DNA of 50,023 bases, from NCBI GenBank assembly GCA_022448165.1, contig JAKVAS010000005.1:1-50023 (forward strand), given 5' to 3'. Below the pieces are notes generated by a model. The model made no database searches and was not told the origin of the DNA. It saw only the letters and a program-made list of their open reading frames with translations. The stretch comes from Crocinitomicaceae bacterium (GTDB lineage: Bacteria > Bacteroidota > Bacteroidia > Flavobacteriales_D > Crocinitomicaceae). The position numbers were made by a program, and so were the translations under genes. This document shows, piece by piece, positions 33,439 through 41,409 of this stretch (positions are counted from its first letter, which is position 1; every line of letters begins with the position of its first letter).

Positions 33439-36078
33439 CTAAGCTATTTGTTGAATGTCCTGTAAAATTTCACTGACGGTAGTTGATAAATTGTCATTTC
33501 GATGAATCACGTACCTCGCTCTTTTTTTGTCTCTAGAAAACTCATCGAATAGTGTCAAGTATTTCTTTGTAAGTATAGCGTTGTGGGAAGCATTTTTTTC
33601 CTGTTTACGTTTAGCTATTATCTCTGGATCAGCACTGAGGAAAACATTTAAAGATGGTTTTAAAATGAATCGATACAACCATTTGGCAAACTTTCTATTC
33701 ACCCTTAGGTTTGTTCGTTGAGGATGGTTTATCAAATCAAAATAATAGCGATCATACAATACTATTTTTCCGGCCAAAACATAGCGTATATAAACATAGA
33801 ATTGACCAAATAAATAATCAAAATAGTAATATGAAAAGCGCATATAAGAGCCTAAAATGGACGTCCCTATAACAGGTTCTCTATCTAAATTCGAGGCGTT
33901 CGCTTCCATTCTTTGCGAACCTCCATACTTAAATGCACTTAAAGTTGGTAACATTTTAGGGCGATAACGCATCAAAACGACCTCTCTTCTATACTTCTTT
34001 TTAAGCTGTTCTTTAACGGTTTCAATTACTGTTGATTTCCCAATTCCATCCACACCACTGAAAGTCAGTATAAACCCTCTACGTCGTACCCTTTCTGTTA
34101 GAATATCCAAAATGTATTGAGCTTTAGCTACTAAGCGCTTCAAAAATGATGGTCTTAAATCTTTATTCAATTTCTTATTAAAAGCAACTTTACAAACCCT
34201 AAATGCTCTTAACAAATCAGTCATGTTTGAAAATTCAAGTCCATATTTTTTAAAAAAATATCTTAATGTTCTTAATTGATTTTCCCTTTCTGAATTTTCA
34301 AACCGCTCAAAATGCCTCTTCGGTACAGGAGAATTACTTAACGTATAAAACATCAATACATATTCAGCATCATGATGTAATGCAGGCACAACAACTCCAT
34401 TTCTATTCACCTTAGACTCAGATAAAAGCTCATTTATATCCATAAAACGCACACCCTTTCGTTTAAAATCATAAATGAAGTCAATACTCAAATAACCACT
34501 ATCATGAAAGAATAGTTCCAAAGTTGTCATGAAAGACTTCTTGATACATTTAAAGCGCTTTACATCTTTATGATTAGTACAAAACCTGATTGTTTTTTGA
34601 AGGTCATCGGAATGAAGAGCGATCTCGAAATCAGACGCTACAGGAAGAGCTGACAAGTCTACTTCGTTAAATTTCAAAAAAGAATGCTGTACCTTTCCTA
34701 AAAAGGAGCCAAACTTAGAAATAAAGCCCTCTCTATTTTCTACTTCTTTTGGTAAGACATAAAGCATAGCTTCTTTCCAAACCGATAATTCATGTGCTGA
34801 TATACTCTCATCAGAGTTTTCAAGTTTTGTTAAGTATAATTTCCGAGAAATAATGTACAGTAAGTACATTTGAATGTGTCTTTTTACATTGATCGAATAT
34901 TTCTGAATCTCATTTTGAATTACTTCTCGAGATTCAATCGTAAAATTAATACGTGCATAAATTTGATTAAAATTCCACTTTTTGAGTTGTATTCCTGTTT
35001 GAAAATGATAATGGAACAGGTCAAACAAAAGAGGAGCTGATTTTATTGATGTTTCCCAATCGTAAATAAACAACTTACCTTCTGACAAGTACATGTTCCA
35101 TGGAGTAAAATCGCCATGCGCCAATCCCGTTGAAAATTTATAGTCATTTGGAATATCATTAAACACTTTTAAAAGAAGATTTTCAATGCTTGTCCTTTCT
35201 TCACTTTCAATAGAGATACAATCATTAATGATCCGTTTACCAAATTCAGATTCATCAAAGCGCATTTCAGACCTCGACAAATCAGAAATTTCTACAAGCG
35301 CATTGGCATGCTGTTCAAGGAACAGGCTGGTTGGTTTTTTATTTTCAGCACTCAGTTTCGATATTGTAATTACTCCTTTATACCCCGTAGACCTTGCACA
35401 AGGAACCTTAATGTTTTTAAAGGATTTTCTTTCTAAATGAAAAAGTATATTTGCTTCATTTTCTATATTCCTTTGAGAATTTTTACTCATTCCAAATTTA
35501 AGGAAATGCGTACTTTTCTTTTTTGTTACTAGAGCTACGTGAATCGTTCTTTCAACCCCTGGTTTTGCCATGAATATTGAAAAATCATCAAAATTCAAAT
35601 TTTTCGGCCCTATCTCAATACAATTAAAAGAATTTGAGTGAACTGTCATTGCTTTTGATATAAACCCATCTAATCGAGTTATTGCAAGAAAATGAAACCC
35701 TAATCTCATTAACTTCCCTCGTTTTGTAGAAGTATCATAGAAATCAATTATAGATTTCATTTGACCTTTTGGGTAAACCCATCGTATGGATCCATTTATT
35801 CTAATGAATCTAAATTCTCTTTTAAACGCCCTCTTTATCCCTTTTGAGGACCCAAACTCTATAATTCGTTCATATTTATCATATAAATCTGATAATTGTG
35901 CACTATCACCTGTAATTAATGCGTGATTGTCTAATTGCTTCTCTCTCTTTTGAAAAGGACTATTTTCAAACCGATCACTCGTATCGATTATGTGAACTTC
36001 AGATGTTTCAGGAATAAATAGCTTTCGTAGAACTTCTAAATCTTTATATGAAACCTTCTTCATGATTATCGTTTTCAA
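33439..36078 (-). CDS. Three-part protein: APH-like kinase, NTase-like region, thymidylate-kinase-like domain
   Basis: The protein has 879 residues. Region A (~1-130) is unassigned. Region B (~130-450) resembles aminoglycoside/choline phosphotransferases, with GLAHGDFTPWNMYL (~318-331, Brenner motif HGD-N) and FIYDWETS (~338-345, DWE Mg2+ motif). Region C (~475-640) has VASDFEIALHSDD and LSIDFIYDFKRKGVRFMDI, recalling nucleotidyltransferase-type acidic motifs; this is tentative. Region D (~665-879) is thymidylate-kinase-like: P-loop FSGVDGIGKSTVIETV, DR motif VLYDRYYFDL, and the lid-region basic segment. The gene heads the polysaccharide block, and a palindrome and direct repeat lie upstream. 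It could phosphorylate a sugar, lipid or nucleotide for glycan synthesis. An alternative start is ATG 36063. Confidence 0.8.
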   Translation of the reverse strand: MKTIIMKKVSYKDLEVLRKLFIPETSEVHIIDTSDRFENSPFQKREKQLDNHALITGDSAQLSDLYDKYERIIEFGSSKGIKRAFKREFRFIRINGSIRWVYPKGQMKSIIDFYDTSTKRGKLMRLGFHFLAITRLDGFISKAMTVHSNSFNCIEIGPKNLNFDDFSIFMAKPGVERTIHVALVTKKKSTHFLKFGMSKNSQRNIENEANILFHLERKSFKNIKVPCARSTGYKGVITISKLSAENKKPTSLFLEQHANALVEISDLSRSEMRFDESEFGKRIINDCISIESEERTSIENLLLKVFNDIPNDYKFSTGLAHGDFTPWNMYLSEGKLFIYDWETSIKSAPLLFDLFHYHFQTGIQLKKWNFNQIYARINFTIESREVIQNEIQKYSINVKRHIQMYLLYIISRKLYLTKLENSDESISAHELSVWKEAMLYVLPKEVENREGFISKFGSFLGKVQHSFLKFNEVDLSALPVASDFEIALHSDDLQKTIRFCTNHKDVKRFKCIKKSFMTTLELFFHDSGYLSIDFIYDFKRKGVRFMDINELLSESKVNRNGVVVPALHHDAEYVLMFYTLSNSPVPKRHFERFENSERENQLRTLRYFFKKYGLEFSNMTDLLRAFRVCKVAFNKKLNKDLRPSFLKRLVAKAQYILDILTERVRRRGFILTFSGVDGIGKSTVIETVKEQLKKKYRREVVLMRYRPKMLPTLSAFKYGGSQRMEANASNLDREPVIGTSILGSYMRFSYYYFDYLFGQFYVYIRYVLAGKIVLYDRYYFDLINHPQRTNLRVNRKFAKWLYRFILKPSLNVFLSADPEIIAKRKQEKNASHNAILTKKYLTLFDEFSRDKKRARYVIHRNDNLSTTVSEILQDIQQIA

Positions 36079-36555
36079 AAGAAGTCTCAGAATTATGCCG
36101 TATTATGCCACAAAAGGAAAACTGCCCATACATAAAGAGATACAGGGCTAACACACTGAAAAATAGTTCGTTTTCACATTTCTTGTTTGGGATCAAATTC
36201 TCATTTTGAGAAAAGGTTGTCATTAAGAATTTACTCCTAAAAAATTCTTTTCACAACCAATCCCACCTAACAGACCTAATAATCCAGCTAAGAATTTAAT
36301 TAGTGTTCTGTTGGGGGCATTGGTAGTATAGTCTCATTATAGGGTTATATAACAGGGTAAAATGAATCATAAGTTTACATTGATTAAGACTTTAAACAAT
36401 TGTAATGGGCTTATCATCCACCTATAACCAATACCGTAATTTTTTTTGATCTATTAGATACTAAATGTTTTTTTCATTTATTTCAAAAATCTCCATAGCA
36501 AAGAAGTCAAAGTGAATTAAATCGACCTGACTTATAAGTTATTTGTTAGGAATCT
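36079..36555. other. Regulatory-looking gap upstream of the 879-residue gene
   Basis: No gene is seen in these 477 bp. The direct repeat ATTATGCC at 36092-36099 and 36102-36109 (10-bp period) sits close to the start of the downstream gene. The palindrome TTCTCATTTTGAGAA is at 36198-36212. The remainder (36220-36555) is AT-rich and holds no reading frame, terminator or RNA that I can support. Its length suggests several regulatory sites for the minus-strand gene at 33439-36078. Confidence 0.5.
36198..36212. promoter_or_regulatory. Palindrome TTCTCA-N3-TGAGAA, candidate activator site
   Basis: Perfect 6-bp arms with a 3-bp spacer, about 120 bp upstream of the ATG at 36078. That is the usual distance of a sigma-54 enhancer-type site. 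The same arms occur at 37113-37127 and, with one mismatch, at 41420-41434 in front of the NtrC-type regulator. Binding by that regulator is inference. Confidence 0.35.
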
Positions 36556-36993
36556 CTATTTTATTAAAAACCAACCCTTTAACTTTTCAATTCTATTGTT
36601 TCTCCACATCTTTTTTTGATTCTGAATAGCCTTATCCATCATTACCAACAACCGAGTCATTGCATGTTGTTCCGTTTTTTCTATATAATCAATTGCGCCG
36701 TATTTTAGTGCATCTATTACTACATCCATATTCTCTTGAGCTGAAAGAAAAATCACCTGAATTAAAGGGTCAGCAGACTTAATTTCCCTAAGCACATGAA
36801 GCCCGTCCATTTGGTCAAGCATATGGTCAAGAATTACAATATTTGGTGATGCTCCCTTATAATCTAAGCACCCTTTTCCCGTATCAAATAGTTGAATATT
36901 TTTGTACCCGTCATTAACGAGCGTATTACGAATCAATTCTGCATAAAACTTATCGTCCTCAACAATAAATATTTTAATCTCAGTTGTTTTCAT
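36556..36993 (-). CDS. Stand-alone response regulator receiver
   Basis: The protein has 145 residues. The receiver domain covers ~5-125 with acidic residues ED at 12-13, phospho-acceptor Asp56 in IVILDHMLDQMDG, Ser in FLSAQ and Lys in YIEKTEQHA. The C-terminal ~20 residues (KKMWRNNRIEKLKGWFLIK) are basic and aromatic, without an output domain. It is likely a phosphate relay or a protein-protein switch, possibly receiving phosphate from the HPt domain of the hybrid kinase encoded just upstream. A terminator separates it from that operon, so it is transcribed on its own. Confidence 0.88.
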   Translation of the reverse strand: MKTTEIKIFIVEDDKFYAELIRNTLVNDGYKNIQLFDTGKGCLDYKGASPNIVILDHMLDQMDGLHVLREIKSADPLIQVIFLSAQENMDVVIDALKYGAIDYIEKTEQHAMTRLLVMMDKAIQNQKKMWRNNRIEKLKGWFLIK

Positions 36994-37045: not shown

Positions 37046-37070
37046 AAAAACCCCTTATTTAAAGGGGTTT
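37046..37070 (-). terminator. Terminator of the NtrC/H-NOX/kinase operon
   Basis: AAACCCCTT (37048-37056) pairs with AAGGGGTTT (37062-37070) around a 5-nt loop. On the minus strand it ends in a run of five T (37046-37050). It lies about 46 bp past the kinase stop codon and upstream of the lone receiver gene. Confidence 0.65.
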
Positions 37071-37108: not shown

Positions 37109-37131
37109 AGCTTTCTCAGTTTGAGAAAGCT
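37109..37131 (-). repeat. Hairpin across the end of the kinase gene
   Basis: The 10-bp arms AGCTTTCTCA (37109-37118) and TGAGAAAGCT (37122-37131) flank a 3-nt loop and span the kinase stop codon (37116-37118). A T-rich stretch (GTTTCATTTTT) follows on the minus strand. It can be a first terminator in tandem with 37046-37070. It also contains the TTCTCA-N3-TGAGAA palindrome. Confidence 0.45.
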
Positions 37132-39545
37132 TGATTCAGTTCAATAATAACCGCTTCAAGTAATGGTATCAGTTCAAGCGCTCGATTCTTTCTATCTTCA
37201 AATGTAAAATCATCCATCTCGATACTTCTAACAATCACAACAATATCATTTGTACATATATGTGCTGCCGCCGCCTTCATCGTATGTGCAATCGTTTTAA
37301 GCTGATCTTCGTTTTTCTCTGTGATAGCTTTATAAAAAGACTCAATATTCAATTTTGTTTCCTCCACAAATAAATTGACCATTCGCTTTTGAAAGACTTC
37401 ATCTCCTCTTGTTATGGAGTCAATTCCTTTCCTATTAATCCCAGATTTCAATTTGTTTTTAAATGGAATGATTGGTTCTGCCAACAAGTATTTCGTAAGT
37501 ATTTTATAGAAATCGTCTTGGGAGAAGGGTTTACTCAAATAATCATTCATTCCCGCTTCTTTACATTTTTCAGTTTCACCTTGAATTGCATTCGCGGTAA
37601 GTGCAATAATAGGAACCTTTGTTAGGTTTAGTTCATTTCTTATAATCTTCGAGGCTTCAATTCCGTTCATAATTGGCATTCTAATATCCATCAAAATAAG
37701 ATCAAACTCTTCCGTTTTAAGCAATTCGACAGCTTCTTTTCCATTAATTGCCTCCACAATAACACACCCCCAGTTCCCTAAAATAGTATTGACCAAAAAA
37801 CGATTAACTTCTGCATCTTCTACCACTAAAATCCTATATCCTTCAAGACTTTTAGGCCCGCCAATGTTTGATGAGCTTCTATCTTCTACAGGTAAATTTG
37901 TTCGTTCAAAACTTAGGTTGAACCTAAACTTTGATCCGACCCCTAACTCCGAAGACACTTTTAACTCCCCTCCCATATTTTCGATAATCCCATTGGCTAT
38001 TGCTAAACCAAGGCCAGTACCATTTTCCGACGACGTATTCGTATTAGATGCTTGTTCAAAAATATTAAAAACCTTCTCAATATCTTCTTCAGGAATCCCC
38101 ACACCAGTATCGGCAACTTCAAATGAATAAACATCAAACTCTTTAGTACTCGATATTAATTCTATTTCTAATGTAATCGAACCGACTTCTGTGAATTTAA
38201 CCGCATTTCCAATTAGGTTAAAGAGTACTTCCTTTAATCGTGTCGCATCCAAAAGATAATTTCTATTTGGAATGAGTCCATCAATAAAATTCACTGAAAG
38301 TCCCTTCTTTCTCCCAATTACAGAAAAACTCCGATGAATGTGTTCCATCACTTCAGATAAATCTGTAGGCTCCTTAACACGTTCAAGTTTTCCTGATTGT
38401 ATTTTTAAGAGATCAAGTATTTCATTAATCAGACAAAGTAAATTATCTCCTGAAGCCATTATTGTTTCCAAGTATTTACGTTGAGTAGGCGTTGGAACGC
38501 TATTTAACATTAACTCGGAAATTCCAATAATCGCATTTAGAGGAGTTCTAATTTCATGGCTAATATTCGCTAAAAACAAATCTTTTGCTTCTAAAGAGCG
38601 TTCCGCTATTGCTTTGGCTGCTCTAAGCTCCTCTTCTAGGTTTTTCTGAAAGGAAATGTCAAGATGGATGCCTACAGACCCCATTATTACACCGTTTTCA
38701 TTATAGTAAGGTGCTCCACTAACCAAGACCCATACCTCTCCTCCACCTTTCTTTTGTAGTTTTACTTCGTACACTTCCGAATCTCCTTCTAAACGCTCTT
38801 GGTTACGAATTTTCATTCGTTCTTCTTCCTCTTTAGAAAGAAAATAACTTGCTGCATCTTTTCCGACTAATTCTTTATTAGTATATCCCGTAAGCTTAGA
38901 AAATTTAGGATATGCTTTTATAATTTTACCATTTCGGTCTACCTCAAGTAAACCTAATTCCATATTTTCAATGATACTTCGGTACTTTTCTTCACTGAGC
39001 ATCAGTGATTTCTCAACACGCTTTCTATCCGAAATATCTCTAGCTAGAACATTAAATATGCCTCCCTCGGAAATCGACAAGTCAACCGTTTGACCTAACC
39101 ATACTTCTTTTCCTTCAGCATTTATTACAGGAAATTCAGTATAGGTAGATTGCAGCTTTTCTTGTAGTTGAAACTTATAAAATCCATTTACTCTTTTTCG
39201 ATATTTTTCCGCAACGAAACGTCTGAAGTTGGACCCTATCAACTCTTCTTCAGTATATCCAGAAAACCGAAGCATCATTCCGTTTGCATAAGTAATTCTT
39301 CCTTCAGTATCGCATGAATAGATTAAATCCGTTGCATTTTCTACCAAATTTCGATAGACCCGCTCTCGGTCCTTTATTTCAATTATTTGCCTTCTTAATT
39401 CTGCTTCTTGATTATCTCTTATAGTTACTAGCTCTTGATTCGCTTGAAATAACTCCAAAGACTTCTCTTCAAGAATACGTTCTGCTTCTTTTCGCGCTTC
39501 TTTCTCACGAGCCAATTTCCGTTTTAAGCGTTCAAGTTCACTCAC
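37116..39545 (-). CDS. Hybrid sensor histidine kinase with two PAS, receiver and HPt domains
   Basis: The protein has 809 residues with no transmembrane segment. The start is GTG at 39545, sharing one base with the H-NOX stop (TAGTG). In order: N-terminal coiled coil (~1-60, LKRKLAREKEARKEAERILE), PAS (~63-175), PAS with PAC (~185-305), HisKA with FLANISHEIRTPLNAIIG (His ~331), HATPase_c (GNAVKFTEVGS, DTGVGIPEEDIE, GTGLGLAIANGI), receiver (~573-690, ILVVEDAEVNRF, Asp in LILMDIRMP) and HPt (~715-800, His in TIAHTMKAAAAHI). It can pass phosphate internally to HPt and on to Asp54 of the NtrC-type regulator or the lone receivers. Input probably comes from the co-translated H-NOX-like protein. Confidence 0.93.
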   Translation of the reverse strand: MSELERLKRKLAREKEARKEAERILEEKSLELFQANQELVTIRDNQEAELRRQIIEIKDRERVYRNLVENATDLIYSCDTEGRITYANGMMLRFSGYTEEELIGSNFRRFVAEKYRKRVNGFYKFQLQEKLQSTYTEFPVINAEGKEVWLGQTVDLSISEGGIFNVLARDISDRKRVEKSLMLSEEKYRSIIENMELGLLEVDRNGKIIKAYPKFSKLTGYTNKELVGKDAASYFLSKEEEERMKIRNQERLEGDSEVYEVKLQKKGGGEVWVLVSGAPYYNENGVIMGSVGIHLDISFQKNLEEELRAAKAIAERSLEAKDLFLANISHEIRTPLNAIIGISELMLNSVPTPTQRKYLETIMASGDNLLCLINEILDLLKIQSGKLERVKEPTDLSEVMEHIHRSFSVIGRKKGLSVNFIDGLIPNRNYLLDATRLKEVLFNLIGNAVKFTEVGSITLEIELISSTKEFDVYSFEVADTGVGIPEEDIEKVFNIFEQASNTNTSSENGTGLGLAIANGIIENMGGELKVSSELGVGSKFRFNLSFERTNLPVEDRSSSNIGGPKSLEGYRILVVEDAEVNRFLVNTILGNWGCVIVEAINGKEAVELLKTEEFDLILMDIRMPIMNGIEASKIIRNELNLTKVPIIALTANAIQGETEKCKEAGMNDYLSKPFSQDDFYKILTKYLLAEPIIPFKNKLKSGINRKGIDSITRGDEVFQKRMVNLFVEETKLNIESFYKAITEKNEDQLKTIAHTMKAAAAHICTNDIVVIVRSIEMDDFTFEDRKNRALELIPLLEAVIIELNQAFSN

Positions 39546-40078
39546 TAATCAAGTTTAATTAAAAAGTTAACAGCCAAGTCGTTCTCAGTTATTCTTGTCA
39601 TTTTAACCTGGCCTTCATTCTTAAACTGTTTTAAGCAACCCTGAATTAGTCCTAATGCTAACTCACCAAGGTCTAAATCCGAGTAATATATGATTTCAAA
39701 TTTTTTATCATCAATTCGTTTTGTTTCAAAGTTTGGAAGCTTCGCTTCTGGATATATTTTCCTCACTTCTGTTCTAATTAATTCTTTTGCTTTTTCTAAA
39801 AAATCAAACAGTGTGTCTGTGTTTGCAAAAATTGAAGGGTACAATATGGTAAAAGACTCTAATAAATAGAGTCCAAAAAATTGGAAAATATTAGAAACTT
39901 CTTTCTTCGTTCTTTTAGATAAAGCAGAAACCATTTTTAATAGATCAGACTTAGGGTACATGCCAATTGAAGTATAAATACCATCTAGCCCAGATTCCTC
40001 AATAACTTCTTCAAGTATTTCATCTCCAAACTCTTTTTCAACCATCTCTAGAAACTCTGTAAATATCACGCCTTTCAT
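39545..40078 (-). CDS. H-NOX-family protein lacking the heme-ligand His
   Basis: The protein has 177 residues, a full-length H-NOX (HNOB) domain. The start [20 protein letters not shown] and SGLDGIYTSIGMYPKSDLLK are family-typical. The proximal heme ligand, His102 in characterised H-NOX proteins, aligns with Arg102 here (IRTEVRKIYPEAKLP). The YxSxR motif (131/133/135) reads Y131-Y-S133-D-L135, so the Arg that grips the heme propionates is lost. Ordinary heme binding is therefore unlikely. The rest of the fold, including LGELALGLIQGCLKQF, is well kept, which argues against decay. It overlaps the NtrC-type gene by 4 bp and the kinase gene by 1 bp, so it probably serves as the sensory or regulatory partner of that kinase. 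Confidence 0.9.
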   Translation of the reverse strand: MKGVIFTEFLEMVEKEFGDEILEEVIEESGLDGIYTSIGMYPKSDLLKMVSALSKRTKKEVSNIFQFFGLYLLESFTILYPSIFANTDTLFDFLEKAKELIRTEVRKIYPEAKLPNFETKRIDDKKFEIIYYSDLDLGELALGLIQGCLKQFKNEGQVKMTRITENDLAVNFLIKLD

Positions 40079-41409
40079 TCGATCTCCTTTAATAATCGGT
40101 AAATAGATGATTTTCCTATTCCTAAGCGTTTAGAAACTTCAGGAATGTTTTGATTCATTTCGTCTAAACATTGCAAAATGATTCGTTTATTCATCTCCTT
40201 TAATGTTAGGTTTTCTAGTAGAATAGAACTCATAGACCCGCCTCCCATAAAGGTAATATCGTGAGCTTTAATCTCCCCCCCTTCACACATTACCGACGCT
40301 AACTCAATCACAGACTTCAATTCTCTAACATTACCTGGATATGAATGATTCATCATTTTTTTTCGAGCCTCTTCACTAATCGTAATCATATTTTTCTTTG
40401 GTAAAGCTTCATCAATAAAATGTTTAGCCAACACCAATATGTCTTGTTTTCTATCTCTCAATGTTGGTATTTTTATTGGCAACCCTACTAATCGATAAAA
40501 CAAGTCCTGTCTAAAGGTTCCTTTTTCCACTTCCGCAGTTAAATCTTTATGTGTTGCACAAATAATCCTACAGTTTATCTGAATCGGTTTGTTTCCACCC
40601 ACACGTTGCACTTCTCTCTCTTGTAGCACACGTAATAGCTTTACTTGACTATTTAGGTCCAACTCTCCTACCTCATCAATAAATAATGTTCCTCCATTCG
40701 CCTCTTCAAACTTGCCTATTCTTAACGATGAGGCTCCTGTAAACGCCCCTTTCTCATGTCCGAACAACTCACTTTCAATTAGCCCTTCGGGTATTGCTGC
40801 AATATTAACGGCTACAAATTTTTTCTTACTAAAAGCCGAGTTGTAGTGAATTGATTTTGCTACAACTTCCTTACCCGTACCTGTTTCTCCAGTGATTGAA
40901 ACATTGATAGAAGATCCTGCCGCCTTTTCAAGTAGCTTAAACATCCCTTTAAAGTTGGGACTATTACCTACTAGAAACTTCTCAAACTTGTATTTCTTAT
41001 TTACTTCATTTTGAAGCTCTTCCACCTTACCTTTAAGTTGCTGTTGTTCTTTAATTTTTGACACTAAATTCCAAAGTCGCTCCTTGGTGTCAACATCTTT
41101 CATTAAATAGTCATATGCACCTTCTCGAAACAGCTCAACGGCAACCTCAAGCTCTTCCTGTCCAGAAATAATAAGCACTTCTGTATCTGGAGACTCTTTC
41201 TTTATAAATTTTAGTAATTCTAAGCCGTCTGAGTCTGGAAGTTGATAATCAAGCGTAATTAAGTTCGGTCGAGAAAAAAGAGCCTTCTTTAATTCTTTTC
41301 CTGATCGAACTACTTCAACTTCATATTCAGGAATTAATTCTAATTGGTAGCTCAAAAAGTCTGAGTACCATTTATCATCTTCTGCAACAATAATTCTGAA
41401 AACTTCCAT
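40075..41409 (-). CDS. NtrC-type sigma-54-dependent response regulator
   Basis: The protein has 444 residues. The receiver domain covers 1-120 with Asp54 in [13 protein letters not shown] and switch Lys in YLMKDVDT. The AAA+ domain (~145-385) has Walker A GETGTGKE (174-181), the sigma-54 contact loop GAFTGA (221-226), Walker [15 protein letters not shown] and the Arg-finger region FRQDLFYRL. The C-terminal Fis-type HTH (~400-444) reads [20 protein letters not shown]. It activates sigma-54 promoters after phosphorylation. It is the first gene of the operon with the H-NOX-like protein and hybrid kinase. Two inverted repeats directly upstream of its start suggest autoregulation. Confidence 0.94.

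Follow-up and report, generated by a model that had tools for sequence, protein, structure and literature searches.

The DNA analysed here, called the window, is a stretch of 50,023 nucleotides from a Crocinitomicaceae bacterium (assembly GCA_022448165.1, contig JAKVAS010000005.1, positions 1 to 50,023), whose genome is a draft of 306 contigs that is 86.5% complete. The G+C content, a protein with a Por secretion tail and relatives among the Bacteroidota point to that phylum. On its reverse strand, the window carries a gene for a stand-alone H-NOX protein, a member of the family of heme-based nitric oxide (NO) sensors. The gene lies between those for a sigma-54-type response regulator and a hybrid histidine kinase, and a single-domain receiver is the fourth gene of this conserved set (Table 1). 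The protein matched the HNOB profile PF07700 over residues 2-158 with 121.8 bits (curated cut-off 25.5, E 3.4e-35).

The sequence alignments with four solved H-NOX chains (6bde, 6ocv, 6bdd and 2kii) placed Arg102 of the window protein under the proximal histidine and Leu135 under the arginine of the YxSxR motif, while P115, Y131 and S133 were unchanged; 2kil, the mutant partner of 2kii, is titled H103G in the PDB. The same assignment was obtained from alignments with orthologues of the same genus. The two nearest of them, L050 (genome G022) and L051 (genome G028), have both His102 and Arg135, and their operon is the same; the other H-NOX proteins read from the genus all have histidine at the site. 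Codon 102 is AGA in the window versus CAT or CAC in these two orthologues, and codon 135 is TTA versus AGG or CGG; as every base of both codons differs, a sequencing error is improbable. The analyses thus confirmed the two replacements reported in the initial annotation. That annotation had named another histidine at the proximal position as the observation that would overturn it, but the protein contains no histidine at all, so an alternative histidine ligand of the heme was ruled out. The only cysteine, C148, is also present in the histidine-bearing orthologues and is therefore not a compensating change. Of the features of a heme-based NO sensor H-NOX, the window protein has neither the proximal histidine nor the complete YxSxR motif; the partner kinase is present in its operon.

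Table 1. Features of the H-NOX operon and its surroundings in the window.
Feature	Position	Strand	Description and basis
Sigma-54-type response regulator	40075..41409	-	REC, AAA and weak C-terminal HTH matches; PF00158, PF00072
H-NOX/HNOB gene	39545..40078	-	ATG start, 177 residues, stand-alone domain; PF07700 match
Codon 102, AGA (Arg), at the proximal His codon	39773..39775	-	Solved-chain alignments and codon comparison with orthologues
Codon 135, TTA (Leu), at the Arg of YxSxR	39674..39676	-	Solved-chain alignments and codon comparison with orthologues
Hybrid histidine kinase	37116..39545	-	Two PAS, HisKA, HATPase and REC; Hpt below cut-off; Pfam
Coiled-coil-like N-terminal kinase segment, about residues 1-45 (AR..AE..LE.KS.ELF)	39411..39545	-	Coiled coil judged by eye
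Terminator-like hairpin in the kinase-receiver gap	37048..37070	-	Consensus match only; 5 sites versus a shuffle mean of 2.7 (sd 1.6)
Receiver with a single REC domain, fourth in the conserved gene set	36556..36993	-	PF00072, synteny
Relic of a Wzz-type gene, 21 residues	36253..36330	-	After the receiver gene, inside the stretch 36079-36556

The tabulation of both residues across the family, which the initial annotation had proposed, showed how rare such a protein is. His102 was found in 145 of 147 distinct H-NOX sequences, which makes chance variation at the site unlikely; the exceptions are the window protein, with Arg, and L047, with Leu. The set was collected by searches at the level of genus, family, class and phylum, and contained sequences were collapsed; five low-scoring matches and nine loci without an H-NOX open reading frame (six retrieved with a Wzz query and three hit by the pattern by chance) were left out. 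Because L047 was fetched for lacking the histidine, the count without it is 145 of 146, and the window protein is then the sole exception. Arg135 was present in 140 of the 143 histidine-bearing sequences that extend to this position and differed in the other three. Both histidine-less sequences also lack Arg135 (Fisher p = 0.001, conditional on the choice of L047). Likewise, histidine occupied the site in all six H-NOX sequences read from the 18 plasmid records that were matched. One of the six, a plasmid-borne H-NOX of Pseudooceanicola algae (L203:4001-4543), pairs the proximal histidine with Asn135, showing that the arginine can vanish while the histidine stays. A set of 44 clade sequences, picked by Thr7-Glu8 from 64 available, has 34 positions with a conservation of 90% or more; the window protein agrees with the clade at 29 of these and departs at five (T40M, L64I, F73L, H102R and R135L).

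To look for a sister clade with the same R102, genome_contigs (84,980 species) was scanned with a degenerate DNA pattern; of its four matches, three were unrelated frames and one was the H-NOX of L047. The pattern excluded codons with a middle A at position 102 and was therefore blind to Lys, Asn, Gln, Asp, Glu and Tyr. A form of the pattern admitting any codon, tested on 45 loci, failed to detect the other H-NOX class and part of the window class. The pattern scan of IMG/VR returned 17 stretches and no relative. A further match to H-NOX, in L201 (genome G453), contains internal stops and is probably a broken copy.

The fold of the window protein was predicted with AlphaFold2 from an input alignment of two sequences, the window protein and L047, which gave a pLDDT of 81.2 and a pTM of 0.80. 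The best 20 rows of a PDB fold search with this model were all H-NOX structures, including mutants, and had TMq values of 0.77-0.86. The model supports retention of the H-NOX fold despite the loss of both anchors. Together with the profile match and the synteny of the four genes, it bears out the earlier statement that fold and operon position are intact.

The genes around H-NOX are closely packed: the stop codon of the regulator overlaps the H-NOX start (ATGA), and the GTG start of the kinase overlaps the H-NOX stop codon. The kinase motifs SHEIRTP, DTGVG, GTGLGL and LMDIRMP are all intact, and the Pfam search of the four operon proteins showed no GGDEF domain. The order regulator, H-NOX, hybrid kinase and receiver was found in 12 of 20 other regions from related genomes, with His102 in all 12; a thirteenth region, L066, has the first three genes and then reaches the contig end. 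The kinase and receiver genes of the window are separated by 125 bases, and the terminator-like hairpin preceding the receiver gene suggests that the receiver forms a separate transcription unit. Sites resembling the sigma-54 promoter consensus were absent from the kinase-receiver gaps of the window, L050 and L051, and three sites agreeing at 8 of 10 letters were found in more distant loci. The sigma-54 contact loop reads GAFTGA in the window regulator and GSFTGA in L050, L051, L052 and L056.

The N-terminal segment of the kinase is 73% identical to that of the L050 kinase, the highest value among the four kinase segments compared. Among 28 records examined, the strict segment motif was present in 17 of 21 kinase frames with an H-box lying directly downstream of H-NOX. 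Of the other four, the three that were read (L050, L051 and L203) match loosely; the fourth, L069, lies beside the other H-NOX class. Two more frames downstream of H-NOX carry the motif without an H-box. The control is thin: the sole H-box frame not downstream of H-NOX lacks the segment, and the frame just upstream of H-NOX in L054 has it. Based on this distribution, the segment is likely to be the docking element for H-NOX.

The comparison of evolutionary rates pointed to the H-NOX gene alone. Identity between the window and L050 was 77.9% for the regulator, 64.5% for the kinase and 57.9% for the receiver (68.2%, 49.4% and 54.5% between the window and L051). For H-NOX, it was 48.0% between the window and L050, 47.5% between the window and L051 and 55.4% between L050 and L051. 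The free H-NOX tree joined the window with L050 at 89% support. On the tree of the regulator and kinase, the terminal branches of the window and L050 were 0.164 and 0.138 for the regulator, 0.351 and 0.330 for the kinase, 0.373 and 0.378 for the receiver, and 0.797 and 0.242 for H-NOX. The ratio of the window branch to that of its sister exceeded 1 for H-NOX in all 60 bootstraps, with a median of 2.53 (1.38-8.42); the kinase and the regulator had medians of 0.97 and 1.14. Tajima-type counts, for which L051 served as the outgroup, were balanced for the regulator, kinase and receiver, and one of six H-NOX rate tests with more distant outgroups fell below 0.05. An acceleration on the window branch confined to H-NOX is therefore likely but not proven. 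Identity in helix F and in residues 85-89 (few residues each) is lowered relative to the sister pair. Between the window and L050, the H-NOX genes differ at a proportion of 0.32 of nonsynonymous sites (pN) and 0.87 of synonymous sites (pS). As the synonymous sites are saturated and the frame is still open, selection kept the frame for most of the divergence; in a simulation with 0.2 neutral substitutions per site, the frame stayed open in about 1% of 2000 copies.

The genes following the module in related genomes indicate what it may control. In 8 of the 12 loci with the four-gene order (L050, L051, L053, L062, L063, L065, L067 and L068), the receiver is followed by Poly_export-type and Wzz-type genes, whose domains were confirmed in L050, L051 and L053; neither was found within the stretch examined in L052, L055, L056 and L064. 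The module therefore most likely controls the export of surface polysaccharide, and in these genomes the regulator, H-NOX, kinase, receiver and export genes would together form an apparent NO-responsive switch of polysaccharide export. In the window, the relic of the Wzz-type gene is 81% identical to L050 over 21 residues (40.4 bits, against 25.4 for the best of 300 single-base shuffles), and its DNA is 83% identical over 59 bases. The rest of the genome, at 86.5% completeness, yielded one distant match for each of the two genes, both on contig C223 (24% and 20% identity). The high remaining similarity of the relic to the sister sequence points to a probably recent loss of the export genes; set against the fully changed codon 102, it suggests that the loss of the heme site may be the older of the two events. 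Glycosyltransferase and sugar-epimerase genes lie further down the window. Between them and the relic, an open reading frame of 879 residues (33439-36078, reverse strand) showed an APH-like match below the cut-off and, towards the C-terminus, a match to thymidylate kinase.

The second histidine-less sequence, L047 (L047:3562-4107), is the H-NOX of a proteobacterial metagenome-assembled genome and has Leu102 and His135. It departs at only three of the 34 clade-conserved positions (F17W, H102L and R135H). The gene after it encodes a hybrid kinase, and the N-terminal segments of this kinase (RDARKQAERILEEKSLELY) and of the window kinase (KEARKEAERILEEKSLELF) are very similar. The L047 H-NOX contains three cysteines and six histidines, one of which lies three residues ahead of the ligand site (IEHVIL), so that a shifted ligand or a cysteine site is conceivable in L047, unlike in the window protein. 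Codons 102 (CTT) and 135 (CAC) could have arisen by one base change each, from a His and an Arg codon, respectively. The loss of the heme site is less secure in L047 than in the window protein.

The window protein was further compared with known H-NOX systems. Kinase-linked bacterial H-NOX proteins (H-NOX-HnoK of Shewanella and Vibrio; Kordia algicida, 6bdd and 6bde) are similar to it in fold, family profile and the adjacent histidine kinase, and 6bde and 6bdd are among the solved chains nearest to it by both sequence and fold; they differ in that the window protein lacks the proximal histidine and Arg135. The Shewanella oneidensis H-NOX mutant H103G (2kil) is a structural match to the window model from which the proximal histidine has been removed, but it is an engineered laboratory mutant, solved, according to its title, in the Fe(II)CO state. 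This mutant has reportedly been used as a trapped kinase-inhibiting state. According to one study (PMC7108781), the proximal histidine is absolutely conserved in 598 sequences of the Vibrio cholerae type; in the activation described there, this histidine is displaced together with helix F, the subdomains rotate, and the kinase is contacted by helices A-C and F. Having no histidine, the window protein cannot form the Fe-His bond on which the described activation depends.

Bacterial H-NOX proteins without the histidine are already known. The large group 5 is described in PMC8738867 (section 10) as having histidine in fewer than 10% of its members and mostly proline at the site. PMC5588039 reports that the H-NOX proteins of P. 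denitrificans and R. sphaeroides lack the histidine and that an hnoX mutant underproduces biofilm; this defect on deleting a histidine-less H-NOX was counted in favour of a functional heme-blind protein. Group 5 (Paracoccus denitrificans type) resembles the window protein in having neither a proximal histidine nor a conserved cysteine. It differs in that most members carry proline there and that the P. denitrificans protein is partnered by a diguanylate cyclase, whereas the window protein has arginine, is flanked by a sigma-54 regulator and a hybrid kinase, and has nearest relatives with histidine. The H-NOX regions of the alpha subunits of soluble guanylate cyclase (sGC) also do not bind heme, according to PMC2576301, and likewise stand beside a signalling output. 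Unlike the window protein, they form part of a fused subunit of eukaryotes, whose beta partner binds heme. Chain A of the sGC entries, which we take to be the alpha subunit, matched the window model with a TMq of about 0.5 and 11-13% identity, far below the bacterial H-NOX proteins. No description of a histidine-less H-NOX in a kinase operon of Bacteroidota was found in the open-licence literature, judged by listings and the beginnings of abstracts, and this variant appears to be new.

H-NOX activation is thought to run from the breakage of the Fe-His bond through a movement of helix F to control of the kinase. We give a probability of about one half to the reading that the window H-NOX is naturally heme-blind and has been retained as a partner of its kinase that needs no ligand. 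In one lineage of the genus, the sensor of a conserved module would have lost its heme ligand and the heme-propionate arginine while retaining its fold and its partner. It would no longer bind heme or report NO but would still contact the N-terminal segment of the kinase as a ligand-independent subunit, and the kinase would then be driven by its own PAS domains. With no Fe-His bond holding helix F, it may be frozen in a His-disengaged conformation like the NO-bound, kinase-inhibiting one. The reading is supported by the persistence of the predicted fold, the operon, the kinase motifs and the coiled-coil-like segment after the loss of both anchors, and by the open frame, the near-sister rates of the other three genes and the comparable case of L047. 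Between the two roles left open in the initial annotation, a constitutive adaptor or the sensing of something else, the adaptor is preferred, and no positive evidence emerged for the other; the apparent acceleration of H-NOX alone, the loss of the adjacent export genes, the histidine in relatives of the genus and the published histidine-less H-NOX proteins had not been part of that annotation. Several results weigh against the preferred reading. The H-NOX branch, 2.5-3.3 times that of the sister, also fits relaxed constraint and slow decay, and the Tajima-type counts for H-NOX with L051 as the outgroup were 32 versus 18 (p = 0.065). The Poly_export and Wzz genes beside the operon are lost. Arg135 alone is missing in 3 of 143 histidine-bearing sequences, and in L203. 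When conserved positions were scored by leaving one sequence out, histidine-bearing clade members departed at up to seven of them (median one), so that the five departures of the window protein and the three of L047 are not rare in number; they are rare in kind, as they strike both heme anchors. Moreover, no second genome with R102 and L135 was found in the genus-to-phylum searches, which leaves no means of showing that the heme-less form is conserved.

The main rival to the adaptor reading is gradual loss of the sensor, in which use of the module disappeared with the export genes, selection on H-NOX was relaxed, and the frame stayed open mainly through translational coupling. This account, which we consider less probable but serious, agrees with the long branch confined to H-NOX, the missing export genes with their Wzz relic, the start and stop overlaps at both ends of the gene, and the single genome in which the heme-less form was found. 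It is less easily reconciled with the 29 retained conserved positions and a fold predicted with fair confidence, with the simulated rarity of open frames under neutral drift, or with L047, which lost the heme anchors while keeping nearly all other conserved positions; the export genes, too, seem to have gone only recently, yet codon 102 has changed at all three bases. A tentative extension of the adaptor reading, to which we give slightly less weight than to decay, is that kinase-linked H-NOX proteins can be converted, repeatedly and independently, to permanent mimics of the NO-present state. Loss of the histidine and arginine would free helix F and lock the kinase in one state, which would make the window protein and L047 naturally occurring equivalents of the laboratory mutant H103G.

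The remaining explanations find less support. The V4R/XylR-type sensors are related to H-NOX, and the emptied pocket could, as in these, have been re-used for another ligand, such as a porphyrin without an iron ligand or a small molecule of hydrophobic or anionic character. The acceleration of H-NOX alone, with lowered identity in helix F and residues 85-89, would suit such a change, and an acid could be a partner for the pocket arginine; no ligand is indicated, and no relatives sharing R102 were found in which a new pocket motif could show. This reading is unlikely. Still less probable is heme binding through Tyr, Cys148, Met or Arg with gas sensing preserved. Heme ligation by residues other than histidine exists in other protein families, and Y131, S133 and P115 are kept, but the propionate arginine has gone along with the histidine, C148 is shared with histidine-bearing orthologues, and no histidine remains. 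An error of sequencing or assembly would be conceivable in a draft genome; the intact frame, two codons changed at three of three bases each and flanking operon genes that are as similar to those of the sister as orthologues should be make it very improbable. A heme-free H-NOX can control a kinase by redox sensing at a zinc-cysteine site, as in V. cholerae, according to PMC7108781. This site requires three cysteines plus a histidine or glutamine, and with one cysteine and no histidine the window protein was rejected as a zinc-cysteine redox H-NOX (groups 2-4) on composition; the chance that it works in this way is negligible.

These results link H-NOX/kinase modules to polysaccharide export and show that annotating every operon of an HNOB protein and a kinase as NO-sensing is unsafe. 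If the window protein does mimic the NO-present state, a former response to NO would have become hard-wired in this lineage. The histidine-less window H-NOX and its histidine-bearing orthologue of the same genus form a natural pair for asking which part of the control exerted by H-NOX needs heme.

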